From contig CP053446.1 in NCBI GenBank assembly GCA_013285405.1, forward strand, positions 2,341,001-2,405,000: a stretch of DNA of 64,000 nt, read 5' to 3'. Of this stretch, positions 5,698-58,817 are shown in pieces (the first letter of the stretch is position 1; each line of letters opens with the position of its first letter). Source of the DNA: Ignavibacteriota bacterium. GTDB lineage: Bacteria > Bacteroidota > Ignavibacteria > Ignavibacteriales > Ignavibacteriaceae. Both the position numbers and the translations under genes were made by a program. Below the pieces are notes generated by a model that saw nothing but the letters and a program-made list of their open reading frames with translations, did not search any database and had not been told where the DNA came from.

Positions 5698-5795
5698 AGA
5701 GATGACATCTTTGTGCAGCAAATTCAGCTCTAATAATTTTTCTATGAAAATAATTTACAGGATATAGTTTGTTCACGAAAAAAGATGTCATCTTT
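5698..5795. repeat. 98-nt element with 15-bp inverted ends, copy 1
   Basis: AGAGATGACATCTTT (5698-5712) and AAAGATGTCATCTTT (5781-5795) flank exactly 68 nt. The arms match in 13 of 15 pairs, with a 12-bp perfect core. A second element with the same arms and the same 68-nt spacing but unrelated interior lies at 33334-33431. The right arm with its T-run may also act as a terminator. Confidence 0.65.
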
Positions 5796-33198: not shown

Positions 33199-33223
33199 TG
33201 AAAACTAAAACACAATAAAGAAA

Positions 33224-33254
33224 TGTGAGACTCACCTCTAAGGTGAGTCTCACA
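33224..33254. repeat. REP hairpin, left outer copy
   Basis: TGTGAGACTCACCT (33224-33237), loop CTA, AGGTGAGTCTCACA (33241-33254): a perfect 14-bp stem. Confidence 0.85.
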
Positions 33255-33333
33255 TAGAATTTGATATAACTCATTAGAAATGTCACTATTAAATTAATTA
33301 CTAACTGATGTTACGCAGAAAAGCAATTAGCAA

Positions 33334-33431
33334 AGAGATGACATCTTTATTTTTTATTAAATATTTAAACAAAAGTAACATTGACATTCCAATTTAAGTG
33401 CTTATTTAATCTATAAAAAGATGTCATCTCT
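33334..33431. repeat. 98-nt element with 15-bp inverted ends, copy 2
   Basis: AGAGATGACATCTTT (33334-33348) and AAAGATGTCATCTCT (33417-33431) are perfect reverse complements flanking 68 nt. It has the same arms and total length as 5698-5795 but a different interior. It is itself flanked by TTACGCA (33311-33317) and TGCGTAA (33437-33443). Confidence 0.7.
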
Positions 33432-33516
33432 CCATTTTGCGTAAGGTGAGTTACTAATGGATTCTGAGTAAACGGAATGTTAAGTTTTTAACTGAAGTAA
33501 AAACTTAAAGCAGAAA

Positions 33517-33545
33517 TGAGACTCACCTTAAAAGTGAGTCTCATA
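33517..33545. repeat. REP hairpin, inner variant copy
   Basis: ATGAGACTCAC (33517-33527) and GTGAGTCTCAT (33535-33545), loop CTTAAAA, followed by a decayed half copy (GGTGAGTTTCTCAT). It lies 31 nt before the transposase ATG. Confidence 0.8.
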
Positions 33546-33576
33546 TGGGGTGAGTTTCTCATTAAAATAAAAATAT

Positions 33577-58743: not shown

Positions 58744-58817
58744 TCCGCAGTAGCTCAGTTGGTTAGAGCACCTGACTGTTAATCAGGGAGTCGTAGGTTC
58801 AAGTCCTACCTGCGGAG
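58744..58817 (+). tRNA. tRNA-Asn (GTT)
   Basis: Cloverleaf of 74 nt. The acceptor stem TCCGCAG (58744-58750) pairs with CTGCGGA (58810-58816), discriminator G. D arm AGCTCAGTTGGTTAGAGC, anticodon loop CT-GTT-AA with GTT at 58778-58780, T arm AGGTTCAAGTCCT. CCA is not encoded. Confidence 0.97.

Follow-up and report, generated by a model that had tools for sequence, protein, structure and literature searches.

According to Bertels and Rainey (2011, PMC3116915), the REPINs (REP doublets forming hairpins) of Pseudomonas fluorescens SBW25 consist of two inverted repetitive extragenic palindromes (REPs) with 71 bp between their GI 16-mers, spacer length being apparently the critical feature. Among the GTAG/CGTC REP dimers described by Di Nocera and co-workers (2013, PMC3733652), some are reported to lie within larger palindromes (A. 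variabilis, H. neapolitanus). For REPINs and REP dimers alike, a spacer fixed in length but free in sequence has been described before. Some subclasses of the REP-associated tyrosine transposases (RAYTs) are reported without a GT[AG]G foot in a classification of these enzymes (PMC6006769).

Here we compare with these systems a 98-nt inverted-repeat element that occurs twice (copy 1, 5698-5795; copy 2, 33334-33431) in a 64,000-nucleotide stretch of the genome of an Ignavibacteriota bacterium (contig CP053446.1, positions 2,341,001 to 2,405,000; hereafter the window, in whose coordinates both copies are given). The element is very likely a REP doublet of a REPIN-like kind, the long form of which usually lies within a miniature inverted-repeat transposable element (MITE) of DDE type.

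Distribution and spacing of the doublets

Both window copies carry GATGACATC arms, and direct reading confirmed an earlier, sequence-only reading in that the 98-nt element is present twice with 68 nt between 15-nt arms. The arms are complementary at 14 of 15 positions in copy 1 and at 15 of 15 in copy 2 (33334-33348 and 33417-33431). For GATGACATCTTT the window holds 4 exact matches, or 5 when one mismatch is tolerated, against an expectation of 0.82 at the latter setting. In the whole genome, a single contig of 3.86 Mb, AGATGACATCT gave 44 matches and a reversed-pattern control 2. These 44 matches to the arm, AGATG[A/T]CATCT, fall into 27 sites, 26 of which are doublets (partner with at most two mismatches) and one a single arm inside a gene. 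Measured start to start, the doublets form a short class of 18-19 nt (11 sites), a medium class of 36-38 nt (7 sites) and a long class of 83-84 nt (8 sites). Of 3000 random positions tried, 625 had such a partner no more than 120 nt away, so that a few mismatched partners may be due to chance; the clustering of the distances is not. The sequence-only reading had set further copies with varied spacing against its own suggestion of a selected distance, and this objection holds in part, as there are two further spacing classes but each class is itself sharp. The eight long-class sites carry four different interiors, five sites being identical, copy 2 included.

By open reading frame (ORF) calling, 22 of the 27 arm sites are intergenic and five overlap an ORF, two of the latter being the reading frames of RAYT genes, whose start lies within the arm; by gene context, 15 sites are tandem, 5 convergent and 2 divergent, with the 5 overlapping sites making up the rest. 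The marks of a REP doublet, namely an inverted palindrome pair at fixed distance, intergenic and present several times per genome, were thus all found. No ortholog of the copy at 2577179 was found in the 5 congeners searched, and at the medium-class site 554902, where three of five congener loci were read, a medium-class doublet occupies the corresponding position in G037 but encloses another interior; the two remaining loci contain no exact arm and carry different hairpins, identified by eye. At one intergenic site (L041 near 1003, and L257-L259) the hairpins differ among congeners, with medium doublets of differing interiors in two genomes and other palindromes in two more.

Of 80 family genomes, 9 contained long doublets, our own included, giving 54 copies after removal of repeats of the same place. 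In a search range of 78-108 nt, the end-to-end length between the outer edges of the 11-mers was 92-95 nt in 48 of these 54. A public genome collection yielded the long-doublet pattern in 55 stretches, most of them from Ignavibacteria or from Bacteroidetes bins without closer placement. Matches also came from a small number of other Bacteroidota (Rudanella, Flavobacterium and bins), with lengths scattered over 78-104 nt, and these serve as a loose control only, because some of them are overlapping short doublets.

A RAYT subgroup bracketed by the same palindrome

Thirty-five RAYT matches were obtained in the 80 family genomes and 30 of their loci were examined, the five without an examined locus including the RAYT of the window. 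Doublets of AGATG[A/T]CATCT flank both sides of 5 of the 30 loci. These are the five closest homologues, from four genera (two in our genome and one each in G043, G078 and G022), and no arm was detected within the locus in the other 25, even with one mismatch. A cognate RAYT flanked by the same REP is therefore present. The two genes of our genome, at 1.80 and 1.86 Mb (L039, L040), are near-identical, with a short doublet on the 5' side and a medium doublet on the 3' side; both contain the same in-frame stop ahead of YIHANP, and the gene is intact in G043, G078 and G022.

The arm-flanked homologues carry NHFH and YIH[S/A]NP (Y---NP), and the intact ones score 63-66 bits against NF047646 (REP_Tyr_transpos), below its cut-off of 80. 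The signature of TnpAREP subclass 2.6 (HuH-Tyr distance of about 82, WQ, YIH[QN]NP) was not found; the corresponding residues are H68, H70 and Y130 in L225, and the motifs are LFQ and either YIHSNP or YIHANP. Judged from the flanking doublets, one RAYT subgroup very probably has this arm as its REP palindrome, with AAAGATGACATCTTT doublets as its putative substrate.

The enclosing MITE and the variable interior

Ends of the type TAACTSAYSTTACGCA flank both sides of 33 of the 54 long doublets, one side of 14 and neither side of 7; in a control, 12 of 16 positions were reached by only 1 of 300 shuffled flanks. The distances from arm to end are asymmetric and constant: in 33/33 cases the longer measures 16-19 nt and the shorter 7-8 nt. 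Target duplications were analysed in the MITE set of 47 copies, the 7 copies without ends being excluded. Among the 33 two-ended copies, the full 7-mer on the two sides is identical in 21 and TTANTAA-like, and its central 3-mer is identical in 23, compared with 192 of 1056 cross-pairs. The duplication is taken to be of 7 bp rather than 3 bp because the two sides of certain sites share even non-consensus letters, as with TAAGGAT. Both terminal inverted repeats and a target-site duplication, the hallmarks of a MITE, are accordingly present, and the long doublet is mostly the core of a MITE of about 146 bp with TTACGCA inverted ends (CTSAYSTTACGCA) and a 7-bp TTANTAA duplication. This MITE moves as a unit, and has done so recently, as seen from its inverted ends, matching duplications and five identical cores at different sites. 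The features of the two window copies, and of the RAYT gene beside copy 2, are as follows.

5698-5712, plus strand: left arm of copy 1, the AGATGACATCT palindrome with flanking AG/TT
5713-5780, no strand: interior of copy 1, 68 nt, a weak match to the MITE profile with no significant pairwise match
5781-5795, minus strand: right arm of copy 1
33298-33304, no strand: left target duplication of copy 2, TTACTAA
33305-33317, plus strand: left terminal inverted repeat of copy 2, CTGATGTTACGCA
33318-33335, no strand: spacer on the long (L) side of copy 2, 18 nt
33336-33346, plus strand: left REP arm of copy 2, AGATGACATCT
33347-33418, no strand: interior of copy 2, counted from one 11-mer to the other (68 nt when counted from one 15-nt arm to the other)
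33419-33429, minus strand: right REP arm of copy 2
33430-33437, no strand: spacer on the short (S) side of copy 2, 8 nt
33438-33450, minus strand: right terminal inverted repeat of copy 2 (reverse complement CTCACCTTACGCA)
33451-33457, no strand: right target duplication of copy 2, TTACTAA
33577-34173, plus strand: RAYT gene of the window (Y1_Tnp, E 1.6e-9), with different palindromes of its own; copy 2 is nested in its upstream flank

With TTACTAA on both sides, the MITE of copy 2 spans 33305-33450 (146 bp). The sequence-only reading had considered a fixed length with variable content to be unusual for a decayed transposon; copy 2 proves to be a complete MITE, its inverted ends and duplicated target preserved. 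That reading had also suggested that the neighbouring RAYT might have moved copy 2. The palindromes upstream of this gene are GTGAGACTCACC...GGTGAGTCTCAC (33223-33255 and 33516-33546), with the MITE of copy 2 nested between them, and the RAYT of the window is an unlikely mover, because the ends and duplication of copy 2 are of DDE type and the RAYT of the arm palindrome is another one, at 1.80/1.86 Mb.

Copy 1 lies between two genes that we take to be rhomboid-like and carboxymuconolactone-decarboxylase-like. In the congeners G034, G035 and G038 the same two genes are adjacent without an arm, and the distance from stop codon to ribosome-binding site is about 20 nt, compared with 143 nt in our genome; G036 and G037 gave no match to the query for this locus. 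Copy 1 is thus best explained as an inserted copy of the same doublet, the outer ends of which are, in all probability, now beyond recognition.

Pairwise tests divided the interiors into 24 groups, with copy 1 alone in one of them and without a significant match (best p 0.035, uncorrected). To this extent the earlier statement of no visible interior similarity was correct; it does not extend to the MITE-borne interiors. When 41 distinct interiors were oriented by the long and short sides of their MITEs, concordant orientation gave the better score for 120 of the 153 cluster pairs, which 3 of 20000 orientation-flip permutations reached. Pairwise identity did not separate concordant from discordant pairs (67.1 vs 66.3 per cent), because the alignments were free to gap; the alignment score alone separates the orientations. 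Judged by these scores, the MITE-borne interiors are distant homologues with a consistent polarity. A profile from the family alignment (43 distinct sequences, less one member of the near-identical L099 pair, leaving 42), searched against the window without the rows from our own genome, recovered copy 2 at full length with E 1.3e-25 and copy 1 with E 1.5e-10, the next match having E 1.8. A model of the interior alone (nhmmer) gave no matches even for true members, and was discarded and replaced by a shuffle test. None of 200 shuffled interiors and none of 200 shuffled flanks scored as high as copy 2, and two further copies of our genome without ends gave no signal (equalled in 88/200 and 66/200 interior shuffles). 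Together, the profile and shuffle results identify copy 2 as a plain family member and copy 1 as probably a worn one. For the family of copy 2 the interiors do align as one ordinary MITE, an outcome that the sequence-only reading had named as speaking against it. Its observation on length is borne out, as the interior sequence varies far more than the distance between arms; of the 18 interior clusters, 17 have a spacer of 65-72 nt.

These results raise the possibility that the element is an ordinary MITE and nothing else, its arms being subterminal parts derived from an insertion sequence (IS), its length kept by descent, and its link to a RAYT a coincidental capture. Homologous interiors of consistent polarity, spacing conserved across the whole element and the existence of elements bounded by terminal inverted repeats with other cargo all fit this explanation, and we regard it as conceivable though rather doubtful. 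It does not account for the short and medium doublets that the same arm forms at sites without such ends, for the arm bracketing one RAYT subgroup in four genera, or for a spacer length retained although the sequences have diverged past pairwise recognition. Common descent is part of the reason for the fixed length. More than descent may be involved, with a constraint on spacer length itself, as the lengths persist despite pairwise unalignability and as a second palindrome, AACCTCSGAGGTT, forms pairs 82-88 nt apart. Such pairs (L270, L275, L166, L278-L289) come from G060, from G078 and from a single contig of G059, and several of them lie inside the same kind of MITE. A AACCTCSGAGGTT array was also seen to adjoin a different RAYT in G059:C114.

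Total MITE length was considered as the conserved quantity and rejected, since only 5 of 15 elements bounded by terminal inverted repeats but lacking these arms measure 134-139, the others ranging from 76 to 354. In six loci (L143, L149, L268, L269, L272, L273) TTACGCA ends surround a GACGGGGCATGCCCCGTC-type hairpin instead. Two MITEs of the relative G028 (L266, L267) have both ends and one arm, as though precisely the interior and the other arm had been lost or had yet to be inserted; such single-arm forms would be expected if 83 nt can be lost or gained, through recombination between the near-repeat arms or through a RAYT. A truncated IS701-type transposase (a 106-aa N-terminal relic matching NF049921 with E 8.8e-32 and 110.8 bits, cut-off 250) lies beside one TTACGCA end (L141 1130-1450, at about 166.3 kb). 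As this is the only gene found beside the same end, a DDE source of IS701/IS4 type is suggested and the relic is the best candidate for the enzyme.

Alternative explanations, mechanism and comparison with described systems

A structured RNA with a fixed loop, acting as terminator, stabiliser or small RNA, is a very improbable explanation. Both copies fold better as RNA than shuffled sequences (z −4.6 and −5.9), but the stability stems from the arms, as the interiors alone gave z +0.7 for copy 2 and −2.0 for copy 1. The RNAalifold consensus pairs only the 15 arm positions, so that no conserved RNA structure was recovered inside the arms, where the sequence-only reading had suggested one. A single pair of the 15 covaries: the only variable pair of the arms, it is altered at both of its positions in 9 of 42 sequences. 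An Rfam scan of the window returned only a tRNA gene (58744-58817). A pair of operators, with a regulator dimer on each palindrome and a selected loop of about 83 bp (near 8 turns of the DNA helix at 10.5 bp per turn), would suit the tight spacing and arms that are each palindromic, but we give it hardly any credence, as the 18-19 and 36-38 nt classes are non-integral in helical turns, gene contexts vary rather than preceding one gene set, and the copies are mobile and patchy.

We therefore return to the REP doublet within a DDE-type MITE. The palindrome pair AAAGATG[A/T]CATCTTT would be the cognate of one RAYT subgroup, held at fixed distance around a fast-evolving spacer. The arms would form hairpins in single-stranded DNA, where arm pairing was predicted in both copies (z −3.1 and −4.4), and are, or were, presumably recognised by the RAYT. 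The spacer would be free in sequence, its length being held by hairpin or transposition geometry, and copy 2 would have moved recently and whole by means of a putative DDE-type transposase. Several observations weigh against this explanation. The copies were found by exact arms, which makes the perfection of the arms partly a matter of ascertainment; many genomes with the long class have no close RAYT; no canonical GT[AG]G foot was found, the 54 copies showing AG before and CT after the 11-mer; and although the 250 bp upstream of the window's RAYT do contain the arm, it belongs there to the nested MITE alone. Copy 1 lacks recognisable inverted ends, and its profile score was beaten or equalled by 4 of 200 interior and 3 of 200 flank shuffles (7 elements tried, uncorrected). 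No intact autonomous DDE partner was present in the loci examined.

An extension that we consider unlikely is an element with two engines, in which a DDE transposase spreads the MITE through its outer ends and a RAYT (Y1) inserts or removes the 83-nt unit of spacer and one arm. If so, the single-arm L266 and L267 would be the empty form, and the exchange of arms for AACCTCSGAGGTT doublets would represent different RAYTs on one chassis.

In the accessible open literature, we found no report of a three-class REP doublet nested in a DDE-type MITE, or of such elements in Ignavibacteria. The REP/RAYT picture would extend to Ignavibacteria, where a REP doublet clearly forms part of a DDE-type MITE whose geometry is shared by several genera. 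With three spacing classes for one arm, and another arm at near-equal spacing, one can ask what fixes the length of a REPIN spacer. Should only the known reading hold, the value lies mainly in annotation and in a caution, namely that constant arm spacing combined with a variable interior does not necessarily imply an RNA or a regulatory loop.

Compared with TnpAREP/RAYT class 2 (PMC6006769), the associated transposases share the HuH motif NHFH, Y---NP (as YIHSNP) and REP-like structures flanking the gene. They differ from the Bacteroidetes subclass 2.6, for which atypical structures are reported, in a HuH-Tyr distance of about 60 residues rather than 82 and in LFQ replacing WQ. Like the SBW25 REPINs, the doublets combine two inverted REPs, a spacer of fixed distance and a link to a specific RAYT. 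Unlike them, they have near-perfect palindromic arms, no GT[AG]G foot, three distance classes and low copy number, and a DDE-type MITE encloses those of the long class. As with some of the GTAG/CGTC dimers (PMC3733652), which sit inside larger palindromes, the doublets can sit inside larger elements. In contrast to those dimers, they carry no GTAG or CGTC tag, and the element around them is bounded by inverted ends and by a duplicated target, and hence is itself mobile.
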